From NCBI GenBank assembly GCA_947501115.1, contig CANMVX010000027.1:1-48106 (forward strand): DNA of 48,106 nucleotides, read 5' to 3'. The notes beneath the pieces were generated by a model. It was not told the DNA's origin and did no database searches. It saw only the letters and a program-made list of their open reading frames with translations. How positions within the stretch are numbered: position 1 is the first letter of the stretch; each line of letters opens with the position of its first letter. Source of the DNA: Haliscomenobacteraceae bacterium (lineage in GTDB: Bacteria > Bacteroidota > Bacteroidia > Chitinophagales > Saprospiraceae). The translations under genes were made by a program, and so were the position numbers. Positions 20,643 to 48,017 of the stretch are shown one piece after another.

Positions 20643-21032
20643 TTGACACATTGTTTAGACGAGGCATTTGAATTTTTGAGCGGCTTAGAGAGAAAACAAT
20701 ACGAAAAAATACTTTATAACATTCGTAAATCTCAAGTAGAACTTGACCCTGAACTTTTCAAAAAACTCTCGGACGACATTTGGGAATTTAGGACGCTGTA
20801 TCAGGGTTTACAATATCGACTGCTTGCTTTTTGGGACAAGACTTCAACAATTAACACTTTGGTTGTTTCAACACACGGATTTGTCAAAAAAAGAAGTAAA
20901 GTTCCAGACAATGAAAGTAAAAAATTAGAAAAAATGAAAGCATATACTTTAGACCAAGTACAAGATAAACTAATTGGTAAAATTGGGACACCCAAACGTG
21001 ACATATTTGAATATGAACTTCAAATGGACTAA
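20643..21032 (+). CDS. HigB/RelE-like (phage Gp49-type) toxin, running into the antitoxin frame
   Basis: A RelE/ParE-superfamily mRNA-interferase toxin. EAFEFLSGLERKQYEKILYN, then DIWEFRTLYQGLQYRLLAFW and STHGFVKKRSKVP are signature segments of the Gp49-like HigB family, whose members are about 110 residues. No ATG is available: TTG at 20643 is the only plausible start, and a few upstream codons also look homologous. The toxin part ends near residue 97 (about 20933), but no stop occurs there. The frame continues directly into the antitoxin sequence and ends at TAA 21030-21032. The normal toxin end has therefore been lost or fused. Function is doubtful. Confidence 0.7.
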   Translation: MTHCLDEAFEFLSGLERKQYEKILYNIRKSQVELDPELFKKLSDDIWEFRTLYQGLQYRLLAFWDKTSTINTLVVSTHGFVKKRSKVPDNESKKLEKMKAYTLDQVQDKLIGKIGTPKRDIFEYELQMD

Positions 21033-21248: not shown

Positions 21249-21269
21249 TACGGCACATAACAGCACATT

Positions 21270-21386
21270 GGTAATAGGCGGTGTTTCGTCTCTGCTTGAC
21301 AGTTTTGTGGTAACTGAAAATTCAGTTCTCAGAATTAACTTTTGTGGTGAAAAGCGCGCCACTTCTGCAATCTGCGAAACATTACC
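21270..21386. repeat. Large imperfect inverted repeat after the higBA remnant
   Basis: Outer arms GGTAAT (21270-21275) and ATTACC (21381-21386) and inner arms GTTTCG (21283-21288) and CGAAAC (21375-21380) can pair, with a seven-base bulge on the left side. This gives a 117-bp foldable element. It follows the stop of the broken antitoxin by 21 bases and precedes the T9SS gene. It is of the same general type as the elements after the next plus-strand genes, though its sequence differs. Confidence 0.5.
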
Positions 21387-21441
21387 TGCAAGTTTAAGAG
21401 CTAATAATTTTTGAAATAGGTTGACAAAAAATTAAATCTAA

Positions 21442-23445
21442 ATGAAAAAACAAGTTAAAAACTATTTATTAGGGATAATTACATTTTCAATCTGGACACT
21501 TTCTGTAAATGCTCAAAAGACCATTTTACCAGTTAATTCCTATGGTGTATGGGATAGATCGAATGCCTATGACATTTCAGTTAATAGTGATTACAACTAT
21601 TTAAAAGGCAAAAGTGCCGATGTAAACTGGGAAGATGTGCAACCAAATAACTCAAATCAATACAATTGGTCTGAAATTCAAACTATATTACAAGCAGCTT
21701 ACAATAACAATCAAATGGTCAACATAAGCGTAGGAGTTGGTCCCGATACACCAGTCTGGATTTACGCTAATGGTGTCCCTAGTGTGCTTACAAATGATAC
21801 AGAACATCCAAATTGGACACAATATCCTTATTATTTGGATGACGATTTTAAAAGGTATTATTTCAATATGATAGAAAGTTTCGGTAATTTCTTGCGATCA
21901 CTACCAGCAAATTTATTTAATCATATTGCATATATTCAAGTAAAAACTGGATGCACAGGCGATGAAGTTGCCTATAAGGGAAAACCTCTTAATTCTTCAT
22001 ATACTATTTCTGAAAATCAATGGAGTACTTTCCGATTAGAAGTATTTGAAAAATTTAGACTAACATTTAACACGGGTAATAGTAAGACCCAAATTGGTCT
22101 TCTATTTAATAATATCGACCCAATAGACCAACCTTCAGAATGGCAATGGGTGTCAAGCAATGTTACATATGGATTTGGAACAAAAGGTGGAGCTTATGCA
22201 AGGGGACATCATCTCTCTGACGAGTTGGATTTCAAAAATACCTGGACTCCATATCTCGTTAATCCTCAAGGATTACATTTATTTTCTGCCGCTGAAATGG
22301 ATCAAACATGGACTAAACCATTGTACCAAATTAATATTCCATTAGGCTTTTATTGGGGTGTATTAAGTGGGCTTAATACGGGTCTTTCGGTTTGGCTAGT
22401 TACCCAAAGTGCATTGCAAGAAGCTAAATCAAAACCAGAATTACACGACATTTTTAAGATGTTTAATAAATATTCCAAACAAGTATATCCTAATACTGCT
22501 GATGCAGCATATTCCATTTTTCATGAAGGATTAAATTCTCAAAACACTGTTAAATTTCCAGAAAATATTTTCGGTCAAGCCATTAAGCAAAATCAGTCTC
22601 GATATATTGCCATTTGCAATGCTTATGCAAGCCGTGGTGCACAAATGGATGATGTGAATTCAGCTACTCAAGGACAAGTTTATCAACGGGATCAGCAAAA
22701 AGGGTATAATGATGCCGGTTGGAATATTCAAGAAGGGAATTACGAAAGATGGATAACTCAAATAAATCCAGATTTAACATCAATTGGTCTTTTCAGAGTA
22801 AGAGGCGTTATAAATACAAGCTCATCAAAGTACGACCGTTTTGCTCGCTCTTTTGAAAAAAGTAGTGGGAAAAACACCATGTATTTTAAATTCCATTCCG
22901 ATGTGTTTACCCTTTCTGATCCAGACAGTTTAACATTTAAAATTACGTGGCTCGATAAAAATAAAAATTCGACCTGGGCACTAAAATATTATAATTTATC
23001 TGGCTTGCAGACTGCATTAAATATCACTGGTATTGGTGACAATCAGTGGAAAACAACTAATGTTACAGTACACAATCCAATAATTAAGCAAAATGGTGCT
23101 TTAGGTTCTGATTTTATGTTGGTAAATACAGATAACATTGATGATATCTTTCATGGTATTGAAATAGATATTACACGAATGGGTACCATATCTTCTATTG
23201 AAGATAATGCTGAAAACCTTGAAACAGTAATTTTCCCAAACCCAACATCGTCAATACTTTATTGGAATAAAAATATTATCTCAGATGAAATTATAATTTA
23301 TAATTCAAAAGGGCAAGTAGTTTCAACCGTCAATACATCTGAAAATAATTCACTTAGCTTATTAGATTTAGAAAAAGGGATTTATTTCATTATATTTTTC
23401 AAAGACAAAAAAAGAGTATTAACCAAAAAAGTAATCAAAGAATAA
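21442..23445 (+). CDS. Secreted glycosidase-like protein with T9SS sorting domain
   Basis: A 667-residue exported protein. Residues 1-24 form a signal peptide (SIWTLSVNA-Q). The body (about 30-400) has a pattern resembling TIM-barrel glycoside hydrolases of the GH5/GH42 type (YLKGKSADVNWEDVQPN, GVGPDTPVWIYANG, TGCTGDEVAYKG, FYWGVLSGLNTG), but I cannot name the family or catalytic pair. Residues 400-590 look like a beta-rich accessory region. The end (IFPNPTSSILYW ... GQVVSTVNT ... LEKGIYFIIFF) is a type A C-terminal sorting domain for type IX secretion. No SusC/D pair lies nearby. The gene sits alone between structured intergenic elements. Confidence 0.75.
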   Translation: MKKQVKNYLLGIITFSIWTLSVNAQKTILPVNSYGVWDRSNAYDISVNSDYNYLKGKSADVNWEDVQPNNSNQYNWSEIQTILQAAYNNNQMVNISVGVGPDTPVWIYANGVPSVLTNDTEHPNWTQYPYYLDDDFKRYYFNMIESFGNFLRSLPANLFNHIAYIQVKTGCTGDEVAYKGKPLNSSYTISENQWSTFRLEVFEKFRLTFNTGNSKTQIGLLFNNIDPIDQPSEWQWVSSNVTYGFGTKGGAYARGHHLSDELDFKNTWTPYLVNPQGLHLFSAAEMDQTWTKPLYQINIPLGFYWGVLSGLNTGLSVWLVTQSALQEAKSKPELHDIFKMFNKYSKQVYPNTADAAYSIFHEGLNSQNTVKFPENIFGQAIKQNQSRYIAICNAYASRGAQMDDVNSATQGQVYQRDQQKGYNDAGWNIQEGNYERWITQINPDLTSIGLFRVRGVINTSSSKYDRFARSFEKSSGKNTMYFKFHSDVFTLSDPDSLTFKITWLDKNKNSTWALKYYNLSGLQTALNITGIGDNQWKTTNVTVHNPIIKQNGALGSDFMLVNTDNIDDIFHGIEIDITRMGTISSIEDNAENLETVIFPNPTSSILYWNKNIISDEIIIYNSKGQVVSTVNTSENNSLSLLDLEKGIYFIIFFKDKKRVLTKKVIKE

Positions 23446-23481
23446 CCGTTGCCATACATTAAAATAAATCCAGCAGGTAAA

Positions 23482-23620
23482 AGCCAGCGTTTCGTGGTGG
23501 CTTGAGGCCAAGCCATGAAACTCCGGTTGAACGGAACCGGTTAGGAGTGGCATAAAATTATTATGGATTTTCCGTGTTGGGATTTATTACTTAATAGGCA
23601 TTGCGTTCATGGGCGTTGCG
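23482..23620. repeat. 139-bp structured intergenic repeat, copy A
   Basis: This element starts at AGCCAGCGTTTCGTG and ends at GGGCGTTGCG, and matches copy B (26668-26806) over its whole 139 bases with about 16 differences and no gap. It contains CCGGTT-N6-AACCGG and AGCCA...TGGCT stems. It lies 37 bases after the T9SS gene stop. The rest of the 23446-23794 gap holds no gene; a further inverted repeat is at 23727-23771. Confidence 0.8.
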
Positions 23621-23794: not shown

Positions 23795-24361
23795 ATGACA
23801 TCATATCTTGACAAAATAAACAACTACATTAAATCTCTGGACAACGATACCTTGACTGTATTGCAAAATATTTCCACGGACAAAAAATTTAAAAAAGGAG
23901 ATTTGCTTTTAAGACAAAATGAAATCTGCGGAAAAAGTTACTTGATAATTACTGGTATTGCCCGCAAATACTATCTGAATGACGGAAAAGAAATAACAAC
24001 TGAAATATATTTTGAAAACGACTTAGCTGTTTCATTCGACAGTTATACGTTACAACAGCCAAGTAGAGAATTTATTGAAGCCTTGACTGATGTATCCGTT
24101 TCAATAACTCACTATCAGGCATTTCAGGACGCTAAAACAAAATATCCAAAATTGTTAGCCTTGGACTTAATGCTTGCAGAGTATTATGGCATGGGGCTTG
24201 AAAACAGATTGTTTCAATTTCATACTATGACAGCAACAGATCGTTACTTAGAAATTCTTAATAAAAGTCCGTATATTATTCAGACCATTTCGCTTACTAT
24301 CATAGCTTCCTACCTTGGCATCTCTTTGGAAACATTAAGCAGAATAAGAGCCAAAATTTAA
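23795..24361 (+). CDS. Crp/Fnr-family transcriptional regulator
   Basis: A 188-residue regulator with an N-terminal cyclic-nucleotide-binding-like barrel (about residues 25-115; FKKGDLLLRQNEICGKSYLI, ITTEIYFENDLAVSF) and a short C-terminal HTH (IASYLGISLETLSRIRAKI). No FNR-type cysteine cluster is visible, so it probably senses a small ligand or acts constitutively. Proteins of this size are common in Bacteroidota, usually next to the single gene they control. Here a perfect dyad ATTTGAC-N4-GTCAAAT lies 12 bases after its stop, ahead of the DUF418 gene, making that gene its likely target. Confidence 0.87.
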   Translation: MTSYLDKINNYIKSLDNDTLTVLQNISTDKKFKKGDLLLRQNEICGKSYLIITGIARKYYLNDGKEITTEIYFENDLAVSFDSYTLQQPSREFIEALTDVSVSITHYQAFQDAKTKYPKLLALDLMLAEYYGMGLENRLFQFHTMTATDRYLEILNKSPYIIQTISLTIIASYLGISLETLSRIRAKI

Positions 24362-24444: not shown

Positions 24445-25539
24445 ATGAAAACAAGAATTATTGGATTTGACTTGGCCAGAGCCTATGCGATTTTCGGGAT
24501 GTTTATCGTGAATTTTAATACCGTTTTTGGGAGCCATACTAATCATACTGGATTAAGTGGTTTTCTAAACTTATTCAATGGCAATTCAAGCACTTTGTTT
24601 GTGATGCTTGCAGGTATGGGCGTTTCGTTAATGACAAACAGAAACGATTACACGCTAGAAGAAAGAGAAAGTATCAAAAGCATCATTACAAAGCGTTCTT
24701 GGTTTCTTTTTGTTATGGGTGTAGCCTTTTATCTTTGGTGGCCTGCAGACATTTTACATTTTTATGGTGGCTATATGCACATTGCTGTGCTACTCATTTT
24801 CTTTCCTAAAAAATATTTTTTGTATGCTGCCGCAGCCGCTATAATTATCTTCCACCTTCTATTGACTATTGTTCCTTATGAAACTGGCTGGAATCTTGAA
24901 ACATTAATTTATAAAGACTTTTGGACTTTAAAAGGATTTCTAAGGAATACTTTTTACAATGGTTGGAATTCCATTTTCCCCTGGATAGCTTATTTTTTTA
25001 TAGGAATGTATTTGGGACGTTTAAACTGGAGCGATCTCACGACACCCAAAAAGGTATTATTGATTGGCAGTTCAGTTTACTTCATTACATTTTTAATTCA
25101 ATCGTATGCTACTTCAGTGACTCAAAACAAAGACTTACTGTTTTACCTGACTGCGGATTATCTTCCACCATTTTTGCCCTTTATGTTGGGGACTGCTTCC
25201 TTTGGTCTAATCCTAATAAGCATTTTCATTTTTATTGGCAATAAAATAGGAGAAACCAAAATCGCCAGGATATTATCATCAACTGGACAGATGACATTGA
25301 CACATTACATTGCTCATTTAGTGTTGGGACTTCTTATTTTATCAATAATTACGGGCAAAACGCTTAGTTATGACTTGCTAAAAGAAATCCCGACAAACCC
25401 AATTATCATTTTGACTTTTACAATAATATATTTTTTGTTCAGTTGTTCCTTTAGTTACCTTTGGACAAAAAAATATAAGAATGGACCGTTAGAAATGTTA
25501 ATGAGAAAAATATCGGACGGACAGAAGAACGGCCGATAA
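24445..25539 (+). CDS. DUF418-family multispanning membrane protein
   Basis: A 364-residue protein with about 9-10 hydrophobic segments. The N-terminus RIIGFDLARAYAIFGMFIVNF is the entry helix shared by DUF418 (YeiB-like) and heparan-alpha-glucosaminide acetyltransferase-like families. The C-terminal half (STGQMTLTHYIAHLVLGL, then SYLWTKKYKNGPLEMLMRKI) is characteristic of DUF418. The function is unknown, although an acyl-transfer or transport role is often proposed. It is probably controlled by the upstream Crp/Fnr protein through the dyad at 24373-24390. Confidence 0.85.
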   Translation: MKTRIIGFDLARAYAIFGMFIVNFNTVFGSHTNHTGLSGFLNLFNGNSSTLFVMLAGMGVSLMTNRNDYTLEERESIKSIITKRSWFLFVMGVAFYLWWPADILHFYGGYMHIAVLLIFFPKKYFLYAAAAAIIIFHLLLTIVPYETGWNLETLIYKDFWTLKGFLRNTFYNGWNSIFPWIAYFFIGMYLGRLNWSDLTTPKKVLLIGSSVYFITFLIQSYATSVTQNKDLLFYLTADYLPPFLPFMLGTASFGLILISIFIFIGNKIGETKIARILSSTGQMTLTHYIAHLVLGLLILSIITGKTLSYDLLKEIPTNPIIILTFTIIYFLFSCSFSYLWTKKYKNGPLEMLMRKISDGQKNGR

Positions 25540-25547
25540 TAGTACCT

Positions 25548-25621
25548 GCTAAAAATTAGCGGTTAAGTGTTTAGGTAAAGCTTCGTACTAAGTTCAGTGC
25601 TTGCAGACAGTTTTCGTCTGC
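25548..25621. repeat. Two hairpins in the gap after the DUF418 gene
   Basis: GCTAA-AAA-TTAGC (25548-25560) and GCAGAC-N7-GTCTGC (25603-25621) occur in the 144-base gap before the WD40-like gene. The neighbouring bases (CGCCAACTTCTTGTAA, from 25627) resemble the 3' half of the 21270-21386 element, so this may be a diverged member of the same class. Confidence 0.4.
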
Positions 25622-25683
25622 GAAATCGCCAACTTCTTGTAAATGTAAGCCATTGGTGGCAACCATAAAGGACAACGTACAAT

Positions 25684-26652
25684 ATGACAAAAGGTAATAA
25701 AAAATTAGCCATCCTACATTTTCTGGTTATAGTTTTATCTACTCAGATTTTTGGACAAAATACTTTGACAAAGGAAATTCTTTGGACAACAGATTGGAGT
25801 CCTAACGGAAAGTATATTGCCATTGGAGGTAATGTTGACTCTTTAAAAATCTACAATAAAGGAAATCTAAAAATACAAAAGTCCATTCCAGTTAAGAATA
25901 CAATCACACGTATTAAATGGCATCCTTCAATCAATATTATTGCTGTAACGACACAAATGTCAAATGAAAAATCTTTTATTTTCAATTTCGAGACAAATGA
26001 AAAAATTGAATTAAGTGGTATCTCACCAGATGGGGCAAGGGGAATTGATTGGAATTATACAGGCGAATATTTAGCTGTAGCAGACAATGATGGACAAATA
26101 TTGCTTTACGACATCAACGGTAAATTATTAAGAAAATTTGTAAATGAAGTTAACTTAACCAAAGCAATTACTGCTCTTGATTGGCATTCTAAAAAAAATA
26201 TTCTTACAACCGTAACTGACAAAATTCGTTTTTTTGATATTGAAGGAAATTTACTAAAATCAATAAGGCATAGACAGGAAAATGTAATGTTGTTAAGTAT
26301 TGCTTGGCACAAAACAGGTGACTTTTTTGTAACTGGAGATTACGGAGACGAAAAAGACAAATCATTACTTCAATACTGGAGTGAAACAGGCGAACTTTTA
26401 AAAACCATTGACATCAGCAAAGGGGAATATAGAAATTTGGCTTGGAATGCAAAAGGTGACAGACTTGCATCAGCAAGTGACGCTTTAAGAATATGGGACA
26501 TAAAGGGAAACCTTATTTCAGAAGGTAATTCCAAAGACTATTTATGGGGAGTTTCCTGGAATGAAAAAGGGAATAGAATTATTACATCAAGTATGGAACA
26601 AAGAATAATTCTTTGGAATAAAAAAGCGGAAAGAATAATGACATTAGAATAA
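25684..26652 (+). CDS. Exported WD40-like beta-propeller protein
   Basis: A 322-residue protein with a signal peptide (residues 1-25, ending IFG-Q). Repeated blades follow the pattern W-h-x-x-G-x-h-h-A...h-x-h-W/Y (TTDWSPNGKYIAIGG, IDWNYTGEYLAVADNDG, LDWHSKKNILTTV, IAWHKTGDFFVTGD, LAWNAKGDRLASASD, VSWNEKGNRIITSS), giving about seven blades. WD40 propellers are binding platforms without catalysis. It stands alone between structured intergenic elements (25548-25621 and copy B at 26668), so no partner is apparent. Confidence 0.85.
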   Translation: MTKGNKKLAILHFLVIVLSTQIFGQNTLTKEILWTTDWSPNGKYIAIGGNVDSLKIYNKGNLKIQKSIPVKNTITRIKWHPSINIIAVTTQMSNEKSFIFNFETNEKIELSGISPDGARGIDWNYTGEYLAVADNDGQILLYDINGKLLRKFVNEVNLTKAITALDWHSKKNILTTVTDKIRFFDIEGNLLKSIRHRQENVMLLSIAWHKTGDFFVTGDYGDEKDKSLLQYWSETGELLKTIDISKGEYRNLAWNAKGDRLASASDALRIWDIKGNLISEGNSKDYLWGVSWNEKGNRIITSSMEQRIILWNKKAERIMTLE

Positions 26653-26667
26653 AGGACGGCCACTAAC

Positions 26668-26806
26668 AGCCAGCGTTTCGTGATGGCTGAAGGCCAAGCC
26701 ATGAAACTCCGGTTAAACGGAACCGGTTAAGCGCGCTATAAAAGTGTTATGGATTTTTCGTATTGGGTTTTATTACTTAATAGGAATTTCGTTCATGGGC
26801 GTTGCG
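26668..26806. repeat. 139-bp structured intergenic repeat, copy B
   Basis: Second copy of the element at 23482-23620, in the same orientation and of exactly the same length, about 88% identical by eye. Both stems (CCGGTT/AACCGG and AGCCA/TGGCT) are preserved. It begins 16 bases after the WD40-like gene. The rest of the gap to 26969 shows no gene. Confidence 0.8.
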
Positions 26807-26969
26807 TATTTTGATTTAAGTAAGCTTAAACCAAGAAGAACTTACCGAAAAAACAGTCACCAAAAAAAGTTACATATAGAGCGTCGAACATGGTTAAGGA
26901 AAACAATTAAATATTTCAAATAGATAAAAGTCATAATATTATACCTATCCCAAAAGTTAACTTTCGTCC

Positions 26970-29617: not shown

Positions 29618-30883
29618 ATGATAGTTCAATTTACCGTTGGAAATTTTCTTTCGTTTAATGCAAAACAGGTGCTAAATCTTGAAGCCAAGGGCATCTCCGA
29701 ATTAAAAACAAATATATGCACATTCAAAGCCGAAAAAATCCTTCGTTCAATGGTAATCTATGGCGCAAATTCAAGTGGAAAAAGCAACTTAATTAAGGCG
29801 TTGGAAAGAATGCGTGAAGTCGTTTTGTCTTCCGTTCGATTAAACGATTCTGACGAATTAGAATACAGCCCATTTTTACTATCTATTGAAACCGACAGTC
29901 TTCCTACTTTTTTTGAAATTATTTTTTGGAAAGAGTCGATAAGATACAGGTATGGCTTTGAATATAATTTGAGACAAATTGAAAACGAGTGGCTCTTTGC
30001 TGGTAAATCTGAGAAGAGTGAAAAAACTCTTTTTATAAGAACAATAGAGGGGATTGCTGTAGATGCAAAATATAAGGAAGGCGTAGGAATCGAATCTAAA
30101 ACAAACAACAATAGATTGTTTGTTTCTCTGGTTGCTCAATTAGGAGGACCTATTTCAAAACAAATTTTAGAATTTTTCAAAAATTACAATGTTCTTTCAG
30201 GACTTGATCACAACGATTATAAGGGTTTTACGACAAGAATGCTGCATAAAAATTTAAATGGTTGTGAAGAATCTTTGGAATTATATCAAAAATTAAAATT
30301 AGGATTTCAAGACATTAAAGCTATAGAATCTGACTTCAACCTGTCAGAAATTCCTGAAAACCTAAAAGATGAACTTAGAATAAAATTAGTTAAGGACTTA
30401 ACTGGAAAAAGAAACATAAGCCTTAAAACGGTTCATAATAAGTATGACAAACAAGGAGAAATTGTAGATTTTGTTCTTTTTGATAAATTAAAAAATGAAT
30501 CAGAAGGGACAAACAAAATTATTGATCTTTCGGGACCTATTTTTGATACTTTGAAATTTGGGAAAGCACTAATTATTGATGAGTTAGACGCTAAATTACA
30601 CCCGCTTATTACCATGCGAATAGTTGAACTTTTCAACAGTCCAATTTCAAATACCAAAAATGCACAATTGATTTTTGCAACCCACGACACAAATTTACTA
30701 GGTGAAGAACTTTTCAGAAGAGACCAAATTTGGTTTACAGAAAAAGATGAACGTGAACAGACAGAATTATATTCTCTTTACGACTTTAATTTGCCAGACG
30801 GCTCCAAAGTGAGAAACGATTCAAACCTTGAGAAAAATTACATAAGAGGCAGGTATGGAGCGATTCCATTTATAACAAATTAA
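29618..30883 (+). CDS. AbiLi/RloA-like AAA ATPase
   Basis: A 421-residue ABC/SMC-type ATPase. The N-terminal strand VQFTVGNFLSF leads to Walker A GANSSGKS (residues 49-56). Near the C-terminus, KALIIDELDAKLHP is Walker B, and LIFATHDTNLL is the switch histidine region. There is no nuclease domain in this polypeptide. The next gene encodes an RloB-type TOPRIM-like protein 11 bases downstream, so the pair resembles AbiL (AbiLi plus AbiLii), a lactococcal abortive-infection system, and the ATPase-nuclease logic of OLD and PARIS defences. A role as phage sensor or motor is inferred. Confidence 0.82.
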   Translation: MIVQFTVGNFLSFNAKQVLNLEAKGISELKTNICTFKAEKILRSMVIYGANSSGKSNLIKALERMREVVLSSVRLNDSDELEYSPFLLSIETDSLPTFFEIIFWKESIRYRYGFEYNLRQIENEWLFAGKSEKSEKTLFIRTIEGIAVDAKYKEGVGIESKTNNNRLFVSLVAQLGGPISKQILEFFKNYNVLSGLDHNDYKGFTTRMLHKNLNGCEESLELYQKLKLGFQDIKAIESDFNLSEIPENLKDELRIKLVKDLTGKRNISLKTVHNKYDKQGEIVDFVLFDKLKNESEGTNKIIDLSGPIFDTLKFGKALIIDELDAKLHPLITMRIVELFNSPISNTKNAQLIFATHDTNLLGEELFRRDQIWFTEKDEREQTELYSLYDFNLPDGSKVRNDSNLEKNYIRGRYGAIPFITN

Positions 30884-30894
30884 TTTCTTTGGTT

Positions 30895-31599
30895 ATGGCT
30901 CGAACAATTAAGATTGATAACGCTTTACAGAAGCGATTTGCAAAACAAGCAAAAAAAAGCACACCGAGGGAACTTGTAACTTATTTTTTAATTTTATGTG
31001 AAGGTGAAAAAACTGAGCCGAATTATTTCAAATCATTTCCTAAGAAAGTTGGTAAAATTATATATGACATTGAATTCGAAGGAGGCGGAATCAGTACAAT
31101 AAAGGTTGTTGAAAAAGCAATAGAACTTAGAGATAAGTCGAAACAAAAATATGATAGGGTTTGGGCGGTTTTTGATAGGGATAGCTTTAAAGCAAACTCT
31201 TTTAATAGTGCTATTTTAAAAGCAAGAGCAAATGACATTAAATGTGCCTGGAGTAATGAAGCGTTTGAATTGTGGTATTTACTGCACTTTCATAATCGTG
31301 TAACTGCAATGAATCGAACAGAATACGAAAAAGCCATTGAGGAAGCAGTTAATGGAAAATTAGGTAAAAAGACATTTGAATACAAAAAAAATTCAACCGC
31401 AATGTATGCTCTTTTGAATAAAATAGGTAATCAAGAATTAGCCATTAAATGGGCCAGGGAACTGGCTGCTACTTTATTAGGCGAGCAATTTGCTAATTAC
31501 AATCCGCAAACCATGGTATTCAAACTGGTAGAAGAACTTAACGGAAAATCAGAAGAACTCAATGCTGAACTTATTAACAAATATGAACAAGGAAAATAA
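30895..31599 (+). CDS. RloB-family TOPRIM-like protein (AbiLii-like)
   Basis: A protein of about 234 residues. LILCEGEKTEPNYFKSF near residue 32 supplies the conserved Glu of a TOPRIM-like fold, and RVWAVFDRD supplies the DxD-type acidic pair. CAWSNEAFELWYLLHF is a strong RloB signature. ATG 30895 is preferred; a TTG at 30889 would add two residues. The gene follows the ATPase by 11 bases. In AbiL-type systems this subunit is the probable effector nuclease, released or activated by the ATPase on infection. No methylase or hsd gene is nearby, despite the name 'restriction-linked ORF'. Confidence 0.83.
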   Translation: MARTIKIDNALQKRFAKQAKKSTPRELVTYFLILCEGEKTEPNYFKSFPKKVGKIIYDIEFEGGGISTIKVVEKAIELRDKSKQKYDRVWAVFDRDSFKANSFNSAILKARANDIKCAWSNEAFELWYLLHFHNRVTAMNRTEYEKAIEEAVNGKLGKKTFEYKKNSTAMYALLNKIGNQELAIKWARELAATLLGEQFANYNPQTMVFKLVEELNGKSEELNAELINKYEQGK

Positions 31600-42090: not shown

Positions 42091-43149
42091 CTATTCGTCC
42101 CATTCGCTGCCATATTCTGAATAATGTAAATAATGCATGTACGATAACTTCTTTAAAACCACGGCGGGATACCATGCTTTGTAACTTGTGCTATACACTT
42201 TTACCGATGTTCCAACAGGAAAATCGATGGAACATCTAAAGGGTTTCACTCTCGAAGGCTCCACAATATCAACTTCGTTGTTGGTATAGCTATAAAATCT
42301 CACTTTTACCTTTTTATTGGCTTCTACCCCTTCTATAAATCCGAGCCATTTTGTTCCGTCATAATCTACCATCACTCGCTCACCGACGCTGACATGGCTC
42401 TTGGCTTTTACTCCGCTACTCAAAGTCCAGTTTTTCATGCTCGCAGGCACAAAATAGGATGCTTTTTGTCCTTCCACAACAGCCATTTCGGTATCAATAT
42501 ACTCAGATAGTTCTCCGAGCTGAATCATTCCATTATTATCGGTATCAACATAACTTTTACCATTGAGTGCATATAACAAGGCATTTGAAAAGGTCCAGTT
42601 TCCCGTCGAAACATCTGTCGGCACAACTGAATTTAGGGCGGCATAATTTCGAGTTTTGTATTTCTGGACTTCTTTTGCCAGGCCACCCGAATTACAGCAA
42701 TCGGCCGTAAACAATGCGGTATTTACAGCAAAATTTTCGTTTACGGTCTTAACAATTTCCTCCGTTGTCCAATCTGCCCCTTTATAATTAGCAAAACATA
42801 CCTTTCCGGCAGTATTTTTATACCCATGCCCGCAATAATAAAAAAATAGCATATCGTCTTTCTTAGCTTTTTTTAAAAAAGTCACAAATGCCTCCCTGAC
42901 CGTATTTGTGGTAGCACCTTCATCTTTTATAAAAAGCATCTGGTTGGCGGGAACGCCTTGCTTTTCAAAGAAATTCATTATTTTAGCACCCACTCTACCT
43001 TCTTTTTCGAACGGAGCAAAGGTTTTACCATCTGCCCATTCTAAGACACCGACCATAAAAACCCATGTTCGGGCGTAATCGAGTTTTACCTGAGAGATTC
43101 CCTTCAGACTCAACATAGTAAGGGCGAATAGTATAAATACTTTTTTCAT
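42091..43149 (-). CDS. Secreted caspase-like (C14) protease, copy 1, C-terminally truncated
   Basis: A 352-residue protein with a signal peptide (LSLKGIS-Q). The caspase p20-like domain has the catalytic His in FFYYCGHGY and the Cys in TADCCNSGG. An EF-hand-like loop DTDNNGMIQLGE (perfect D-x-D-x-N-G-x-I-x3-E) follows near residue 210. The C-terminus has two Tudor/SH3-like repeats (GERVMVDYDGTKWLGFIEG; GTSVKVYSTSYKAWYPAVVL). It is nearly identical to copy 2 (46929-48017), but TGG there is TAG here (42091-42093), removing Trp-Val-Ser-Pro-Ala-Asn-Ile-Lys-Lys; the ancestral stop is still readable at 42064. It lies 28 bases behind the AAA-TOPRIM gene. Confidence 0.85.
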   Translation of the reverse strand: MKKVFILFALTMLSLKGISQVKLDYARTWVFMVGVLEWADGKTFAPFEKEGRVGAKIMNFFEKQGVPANQMLFIKDEGATTNTVREAFVTFLKKAKKDDMLFFYYCGHGYKNTAGKVCFANYKGADWTTEEIVKTVNENFAVNTALFTADCCNSGGLAKEVQKYKTRNYAALNSVVPTDVSTGNWTFSNALLYALNGKSYVDTDNNGMIQLGELSEYIDTEMAVVEGQKASYFVPASMKNWTLSSGVKAKSHVSVGERVMVDYDGTKWLGFIEGVEANKKVKVRFYSYTNNEVDIVEPSRVKPFRCSIDFPVGTSVKVYSTSYKAWYPAVVLKKLSYMHYLHYSEYGSEWDE

Positions 43150-46928: not shown

Positions 46929-48017
46929 TCATTTTTTAATATTGGCAGGCGATACCCATTCGTCCCATTCGCTGCCATATTCTGAATAGTGTATATAATG
47001 CATACACGAAAACTTCTTTAAAACCACTGCGGGATACCATGTTTTGTAACTTGTGCTATACACTTTTACAGATGTTCCAACAGGAAAATCGCCGGAACAT
47101 CTAAAGGGTTTCACTCTCGAAGGCTCCACAATATCAACTTCGTTGTTGGTATAACTGTAAAATCTCACTTTTACCTTTTTATTGGCTTCTACCCCTTCTA
47201 TAAATCCGAGCCATTTTGTTCCGTCATAATCTACCATCACCCGCTCTCCGATTCTAGTATTGCTCTTGGCTTTCACTCCGCTACTCAAAGTCCAGTTTTT
47301 CATACTCGCCGGCACAAAATAGGATGCTTTTTGTCCTTCCACAACAGCCATTTCGGTATCAATATACTCAGATAGTTCTCCTAGCTGAATCATTCCATTA
47401 TTATTGGTATCGACAAAATTTCTACCTCTGAGTGCGTATAACAGCGCATTTGAAAATGTCCAATTTGCCGTCGAAACATCCGTCGGCACAACCGAATTTA
47501 GGGCGGCATAATTTCGGGTCTTGTATTTCTGGACTTCTTTTGCCAGGCCACCTGAATTACAGCAATCGGCGGTAAACAATGCGGTATTTCCAGCAAAATT
47601 TTCGTTTACGGTCTTTACAATTTCCTCGGCTGTCCAATCTGCCCCTTTATAATTGGCAAAACAGACCTTTCCATCATCGTTTTTATAACCATGCCCGCAA
47701 TAATAAAAAAACAGCATATCGCCTTTCTTAGCTTTTTTCAAAAAAGTTACAAATCCCTCCCTGACCGCTTTTGTGGTAGCACCTTCATCTTTTATATAAA
47801 GCATTTGGTTGGCGGGAACGCCTTGCTTTTCAAAGAAATTCATTATTTTGGCGTCCACCCTACCTTCTTTTTCGAACGGAGCAAAGGTTTTACCATCTGC
47901 CCATTCTAAGACACCGACCATGAAAACCCATGTTCGGGGATAATCAAGTTTTTCTTGAGCGATGCCTTTCAAGCTCAACATAGTAAGGGCGAATAGTATA
48001 AATACTTTTTTCATCAT
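46929..48017 (-). CDS. Secreted caspase-like (C14) protease, copy 2, full length
   Basis: A 362-residue paralogue of the protein at 42091-43149, with over 90% identity by eye and the same layout: signal peptide (LKGIA-Q), catalytic His in YYCGHGY and Cys in TADCCNSGG, an EF-hand-like loop (DTNNNGMIQLGE), and two Tudor/SH3-like repeats. It retains the C-terminal WVSPANIKK missing from copy 1. The start equivalent to copy 1 is the second Met (48014). Similarity extends only a few bases beyond each end of the gene. As an exported metacaspase-like protease, its substrates lie outside the cytoplasm. Copy 2 has no adjacent ATPase gene in view. Confidence 0.86.
   Translation of the reverse strand: MMKKVFILFALTMLSLKGIAQEKLDYPRTWVFMVGVLEWADGKTFAPFEKEGRVDAKIMNFFEKQGVPANQMLYIKDEGATTKAVREGFVTFLKKAKKGDMLFFYYCGHGYKNDDGKVCFANYKGADWTAEEIVKTVNENFAGNTALFTADCCNSGGLAKEVQKYKTRNYAALNSVVPTDVSTANWTFSNALLYALRGRNFVDTNNNGMIQLGELSEYIDTEMAVVEGQKASYFVPASMKNWTLSSGVKAKSNTRIGERVMVDYDGTKWLGFIEGVEANKKVKVRFYSYTNNEVDIVEPSRVKPFRCSGDFPVGTSVKVYSTSYKTWYPAVVLKKFSCMHYIHYSEYGSEWDEWVSPANIKK

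Follow-up and report, generated by a model that had tools for sequence, protein, structure and literature searches.

The window analysed here (the whole 48,106-nt stretch, contig 27 of a Haliscomenobacteraceae bacterium assembly) carries two copies of a repeat, which we studied as candidate ends of IS91-like mobile elements, together with the genes before them as candidate cassettes of an integron-like system. Both copies are 139 nt long, lie on the same strand and are identical at 123 of 139 positions without gaps (within-genome blastn, E 8.5e-46; coordinates in Table 1). As an earlier note on this DNA had seen, they follow unrelated genes, whose products are a 667-aa protein carrying a Por secretion tail and a 322-aa WD40-type protein. 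They begin 36 and 15 nt after stops ending at 23445 and 26652; the 37 and 16 given earlier count to the first base of the repeat.

The length of 139 nt marks where the copy-to-copy match stops and is no unit length. The sequence past copy 1 differs from that past copy 2, and the latter recurs in the sister genome G001. There, the orthologous gene is followed by a single repeat copy, which agrees with copy 1 at 14 of the 16 informative sites (118 and 122 among them) and with copy 2 at sites 95 and 101, and carries the right flank of copy 2. One clean crossover does not account for this mosaic. Further downstream, both genomes have genes for a 108-aa protein, a 181-aa protein and a receptor-like protein. 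Because neighbours are shared with G001 on both sides, the extra genes of the window lie in a variable stretch that begins at the repeats. Tandem duplication followed by divergence, as the only source of the arrangement, would fit the 88% identity over 139 nt, and the G001 mosaic can be counted in its favour. We consider it highly improbable, since unrelated genes precede the copies, each copy stands behind its own R''-like box (a 12-nt box described below) and the two copies match each other poorly in their flanks on either side.

Further copies, as the earlier note had expected, are present in this genome and elsewhere. The model R1 describes a 62-nt end starting 3 nt before each repeat and was made from 13 sequences. 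Both window copies are among these seeds, so their own matches hold by construction (83.3 and 78.9 bits with filters off, the only two repeat places in the window; next best 12.0). Searches with R1 scored only 13 candidates per genome, which makes copy numbers lower bounds: it matched at least 13 places in this genome, 36 of 393 genomes sampled from the order (E<=0.01) and 15 of 392 genomes of the phylum (E<=0.001). By blastn, nine further places were found in the same genome (E up to 1.6e-4). A related 145-mer is present as seven identical copies, which run off a contig end after 143-145 nt, and as diverged copies; such breaks are what an assembly of a multi-copy element would give. Four contigs begin or stop within the far side of the element. 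Short copies with both ends (205-206 nt) were found twice in this genome and once in G005. Copies follow ..YAAC with few exceptions. At the model start, the preceding letters are AAC in 95 of 140 loci and AAT in 32 of 140 (context YAAC or YAATAAC), from which we read, by eye, a putative cut point YAA|C.

Neither the 139-mer nor a 356-nt mini element matched the plasmids searched, and the 145-nt end had one plasmid match, in Rhizosphaericola. This plasmid also holds a long palindrome (L039, 6331-6397) with below-threshold scores to microRNA families, taken as chance. In a 20-mer scan of genome contigs, four contigs matched; one of them, from Undibacterium, was judged from its flanks to be a chance match. 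Pattern scans of viral contigs for the ends gave none in one scan and 2 and 8 contigs in others, which were ruled out, as their flanks do not continue like the element.

Covariation supports the first hairpin of the end. Its 15 pairs are 92.8% paired across the 13 sequences and five of them changed on both sides. The whole 21-pair structure has 13 cells changed on both sides, against 4.0 +- 1.5 in shuffled alignments (0/500) and 2-6 when the structure is slid, and all 13 lie in helix 1. The compensatory change looked for earlier is thus real in this hairpin, but the count of pairs with such double changes (5) lies within the shuffles (3.5; reached by 100/500). The stems drawn in the earlier note fared less well. 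CCGGTT/AACCGG, which corresponds to helix 2, has no pair changed on both sides, and its third pair is broken in 10 of the 13 sequences; the segment read as this stem (GTTGNAC) finds its match in the other end of the element, read as the reverse complement. Although the window copies allow AGCCA/TGGCT to be drawn, the family pairs in another register (columns 17-20 with 34-37 and 21-24 with 28-31). Constant length, offered as a sign of selection, does not hold for the relatives with two ends, which span 191 to 2458 nt. We infer that the structure belongs to a mobile-element end and that the repeats are not isolated structured RNAs; selection on host RNA then need not be assumed.

The repeats could instead be cis-acting RNA elements kept for gene regulation, either a 3' untranslated structure or a small RNA with its terminator. 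The copies do lie behind stop codons, the hairpin covaries, and several copies run, by eye, into a terminator-like stem and T-run. In contrast, Rfam gave no match at gathering thresholds within the window (in four related loci, only two sub-threshold microRNA matches, elsewhere than the repeat), the same sequence bounds identical multi-copy bodies and adjoins IS91 transposases, and some copies lie in open frames. We regard such a regulatory RNA as very unlikely to be the explanation; an RNA role on top of the mobile one may exist.

Complete relatives of the repeats (2.3-2.46 kb) encode a tyrosine recombinase and an IS91 transposase. The hairpin end lies downstream of and antisense to the transposase, at the place expected of oriIS. 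Complete copies in G563, G622 and G283 have one gene pointing at the hairpin end and a second gene upstream, and the frames of the complete copy in G485 are broken up. The sole complete copy profiled (L116) matches NF033538 (IS91 family transposase) at 439 bits against a cut-off of 125, and also Y2_Tnp (PF04986), Zn_Tnp_IS91 (PF14319) and Phage_integrase. For the reverse test, seven Bacteroidota loci were chosen from 60 of the 404 plasmid records matched by the transposase protein, and R1 located the end in five of the seven, antisense and about 160-220 nt behind the transposase. The identity of the repeats as IS91-like ends is well supported, and the window copies are most likely transposase-less remnants of such ends.

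The oriIS and terIS of ISCR elements are described as ends with secondary-structure-forming sequences (PMC13393415). The element here shares with IS91 and ISCR a Y2 transposase with a zinc domain, a hairpin end downstream of the transposase and unlike ends on its two sides. It differs from both in carrying a tyrosine recombinase and in having matching segments at its two ends, and the ISCR clade Ia model gave only 24.1 bits against a cut-off of 925. The target of IS91 is GAAC/CAAG, whereas the element here follows YAAC-like letters.

The far end of the element was searched by an ungapped scan for a pattern with free positions. It was found at 0-2 mismatches in 13 of 69 loci, the rest being at the shuffled level (at least six), and 9 of 61 further places had it without mismatch, all others having at least five. 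The N of the inner GTTGNAC agrees with that of the far-end GTNCAAC in all 21 unique strict pairs (14 A, 5 C, 2 T), which 0 of 20000 permutations equalled in a test that ignores ancestry. The 32 unique pairs among 38 end pairs have an alignment score of 8.25 against 6.35 +- 0.24; 11 of the 32 are outside the strict GTTGNAC/GTNCAAC form (L137, G364a, L207, L252, L254, L255, L260, L263, L265, L274 and L208). For 15 loci of this set, the inner segment was chosen by eye or from a list, blind to N, of GTTGNAC in the 450 nt behind the transposase. This list took in 21 loci, of which nine have such a segment and seven agree with the far end; the disagreements are L264 and L274, whose GTTGNAC lies far from the hairpin. 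L264 was left unpaired, as were L259, L261, L262 and L271, which have no visible segment.

These matches suggest that the ends may be recognised through the matching segments. The arrangement of hairpin, spacer and cleavage site, with a segment close by that is complementary to cleavage sites, resembles that of IS200/IS605 elements, but here the transposase is Y2 (Y2_Tnp in L116) and not Y1, the segment is on the other side of the hairpin and the pairing is putative. It is nearly an even call whether the segments are ordinary subterminal inverted repeats bound by the transposase, with no end-pairing DNA guide. Inverted repeats should covary under protein binding as well, and both the neglect of ancestry in the permutations and the way in which the 15 inner segments were chosen favour this account. 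Against it, the segment is terminal on one side but lies about 46 nt inward on the other, the end segments of several elements match at 13-14 of 16 letters, and in seven elements one letter is absent from the inner copy alone.

We compared the 12 nt before the hairpin end (R'') with the sequence upstream of the same gene (R') in 122 loci, omitting 18 of the 140 as duplicates or for short upstream sequence. R' and R'' are complementary at 11 or more of 12 positions in 13 loci (0.42 expected from swaps) and at 10 or more in 30 loci (6.3 from swaps); the majority of the 122 are without such a match. All 13 loci at the higher level share an identical single mismatch, at position 11. Of the flanks behind the far end (45 of 49 taken into the test), 20 form an attC-like palindrome at p<=0.01, with arms commonly ~90 or ~150 nt apart, followed by CGTTR. 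Twelve flanks, selected from 16 because they form the palindrome, were aligned. Both sides changed in 15 of the 17 pairs (10.7 in shuffles), with 51 such cells against 19.0 shuffled (0/500) and at most 15 when slid; the selection of flanks favours these counts.

The model R2 was made from these 12 flanks, without window sequence. It matches 16 sites in this genome at E<=0.1 and two sites in the window, where the next match has 12.5 bits, and each window site precedes a gene that stands before a repeat. We also anchored boxes at such sites (15 pairs from 27 R2 matches and 21 ends, not all matches): nine pairs reach 8/12 against 23 of 210 swapped pairs, and some of the low pairs look mis-registered by eye. 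Behind the two cassette genes, the repeats take the places expected of attC-like sites. Since R2 sites lie before both genes and the anchored boxes match in part, both repeats probably occupy cassette junctions of an integron-like array. No R' partner of the box ACGGCCGATAAT was found by eye, and TTTCGTTCA near the end of copy 2 has a likeness, by eye only, to the far end of complete elements.

Table 1 Features of the window around the two repeat copies; assignments of boxes, sites and ends are predictions.
Feature	Position	Strand	Remarks
Gp49-type toxin-like gene	20643-21032		In preceding cassette-like unit
R''-like box	21250-21261	+	ACGGCACATAAC; end of preceding cassette-like unit; adjoins attC-like site 1
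attC-like site 1	21262-21384	+	R2 53.6 bits, E 7.3e-9, filters off; recovered in whole-genome search
R'-like box	21381-21392	+	ATTACCTGCAAG; 9/12 with R'' box before copy 1
Cassette gene, 667-aa protein with Por secretion tail	21442-23445	+	
R''-like box	23470-23481	+	CCAGCAGGTAAA; ..GGTAAC in sister genome G001
Repeat copy 1, probable solo oriIS-side end of IS91-like element	23482-23620	+	
Hairpin of copy 1	23488-23522		
End-matching segment of copy 1	23526-23532		GTTGAAC
Gene with cyclic-nucleotide-binding domain	23795-24361	+	
Gene with DUF418 / HGSNAT_cat domains	24445-25539	+	
R''-like box	25529-25540	+	ACGGCCGATAAT; includes stop codon; adjoins attC-like site 2
attC-like site 2	25541-25655	+	R2 33.0 bits, E 8.4e-5; also in whole-genome search
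R'-like box	25652-25663	+	ATTGGTGGCAAC; 7/12 with R'' before copy 2
Cassette gene, 322-aa WD40-type protein	25684-26652	+	
R''-like box	26656-26667	+	ACGGCCACTAAC
Repeat copy 2, probable solo oriIS-side end	26668-26806	+	
Hairpin of copy 2	26674-26708		
End-matching segment of copy 2	26712-26718		GTTAAAC
Flank common to copy 2 and single copy of G001	26807-26921	+	95/115 aligned columns

A candidate head of such an array lies on contig 16 (L303, 1-6000). Behind the gene for a 350-aa tyrosine recombinase lies a putative att-like site, a palindrome ending TATATGGTA|GTTATGCG; two genes, an R2 site, one gene and an IS91-like end come next. In a sister species, contig 50 of G006 (L305) has the same neighbour gene, an orthologous recombinase 93% identical and the same palindrome, after which the box and gene differ from those of this genome. 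The motif TATA(4-6)AGTTR lies within 150 nt of the recombinase stop in 16 of 29 loci of the family, against 3 of 1044 control windows. Two contigs (L308 and L334) end exactly at that GTTR, which population variation there might cause. R2 matched in only 2 of the 29 recombinase loci, and in neither L305 nor L306.

The contig-16 recombinase scores 203.3 bits, short of the 265 set as cut-off for integron integrases, and passes that of NF040815 (222.2 against 220). TIGR02249 had no match over cut-off in 13 genomes, nor in 14 control genomes. Matches of the recombinases to the integrase model omit its middle, at about positions 181-238. As in integrons and CALINs, genes here appear to be bounded by R'/R'' boxes with attC-like palindromes between them, a putative att-like site lies beside a tyrosine recombinase, and the candidate first cassettes differ between two species. 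The system differs from them in a recombinase below the integrase cut-off and without the middle of the model, in R boxes that pair over ~12 nt with one fixed mismatch, and in an att-like site downstream of the recombinase stop, with cassettes in the same direction. We also considered contigs 16 and 93 as two halves of one split site and rejected this, as the box before the contig-16 gene was unsupportive. Among the matches listed in a search of literature titles and abstract beginnings, we found neither such Bacteroidota cassette arrays nor IS91 elements with tyrosine recombinases in attC, and we claim no wider absence from print.

With good confidence, we interpret the two repeats as remnants of the oriIS-side ends of IS91-family elements, left behind cassettes of an integron-like Bacteroidota system. 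A cassette would consist of an R' box, a gene, an R'' box and an attC-like palindrome of ~122 nt (a longer form exists), and one array in this genome would be headed by the att-like site beside the Xer/IntI-like tyrosine recombinase. The elements, whose complete relatives combine a tyrosine recombinase with an IS91 transposase (Y2, HUH-type), would often, not exclusively, enter the last cassette box (R'', ..YAA|C). The transposase would nick beside the hairpin end, and one strand would be peeled off by rolling-circle replication until a stop at the far end, ..GTNCAA|C. Solo and mini ends would remain where the rest was lost or never copied. Like group IIC-attC introns and IS1111-attC elements, this would be a mobile element homing to cassette recombination sites; those use other enzymes, whereas here an IS91-type transposase would act at the boundary between R'' and the palindrome.

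Alternatively, the hairpin end could itself be the recombination site of the cassettes, an attC variant borrowed by IS91 elements. Genus g209 speaks for this: many solo IS91-like ends recur there behind genes (L210, L211, L217, L236, L239), mostly without the far end of complete elements, and 5 of 12 units examined extend as far as CTGAC|GTT, which is R' of the following cassette. We think this unlikely, because a separate palindrome often fills the place of attC behind complete elements (20 of the 45 flanks above) and, near R', we saw no arm that would match the hairpin end.

Several results weigh against the reading as IS91-type remnants at cassette ends. Among the seven long copies in this genome, those on contigs 16, 11 and 90 have a long frame ending 10-15 nt before them, but on contigs 53, 74 and 115 (L008, L007 and L004) a frame is open across the junction, and on contig 161 there is neither. 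Insertions on contigs 53, 74 and 115 seem to break genes, so cassette ends are not the sole target of the element, and these three of seven copies lower our confidence. In favour of cassette ends, a long frame ends within 120 nt before the copy in 77 of 133 loci with enough upstream sequence; an open frame is present in six others. Of 29 loci picked by their transposase (27 through a protein search that matched 19 of 365 genomes, plus two plasmid loci), R1 found the end in only nine at E<1e-3, and two of the nine were already known from R1's own search; similar hairpins are visible by eye in several others. No IS91 transposase was found in this genome, one family search being blank in control genomes too, so a full element here would have to be deduced from contig ends, in an assembly that is fragmented (4.7 Mb, 175 contigs). 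A recognisable far end was not found behind the window copies. The boxes of the window genes reach only 8/12 in a free search, and 9/12 and 7/12 when anchored. Complementarity of R'' to a box further downstream is not general (3/122 at p<=0.05).

The integron-like system, whose activity is putative, is the more surprising part of these predictions. We give about even weight to the joint reading, in which Bacteroidota have an integron-like class of their own and the IS91-like element with tyrosine recombinase prefers R'', the window repeats being its footprints. The class would have a Xer/IntI-like recombinase without the middle segment of IntI and, close behind it, an att-like TATAAAnnAG|TTR. 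Its cassettes would hold one or a few genes, with R'/R'' boxes of 12 nt that share one fixed mismatch and attC-like palindromes of ~122 nt; matching sequence segments would let the element recognise its own two ends. Should the system work as it seems to, cassette capture in Bacteroidota would be commoner than present counts suggest, and resistance genes sitting as cassettes would include at least tet(X2). IS91-type elements would also gain a testable rule in a frequent landing place and a possible mode of end recognition.

On a Myroides odoratimimus plasmid (L203, 995-2505), tet(X2) lies between two R2 sites, with R'/R'' at 11/12 and the usual mismatch, and has the appearance of such a cassette. 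On a Myroides albus plasmid (L204, 4761-6831), aadS and blaMYO-1 lie between R2 sites and an IS91-like end.

Elsewhere in the window, the stretch from 23621 to ~32000 differs from G001 between the shared neighbours and includes a pair made up of an AAA_21 ATPase and an RloB-like protein (29618-31599), as well as a gene for an Rce1-like protease. On the minus strand, two genes of close similarity (42091-43149 and 46929-48017) encode proteins of 352 and 362 aa that look caspase-like by eye.
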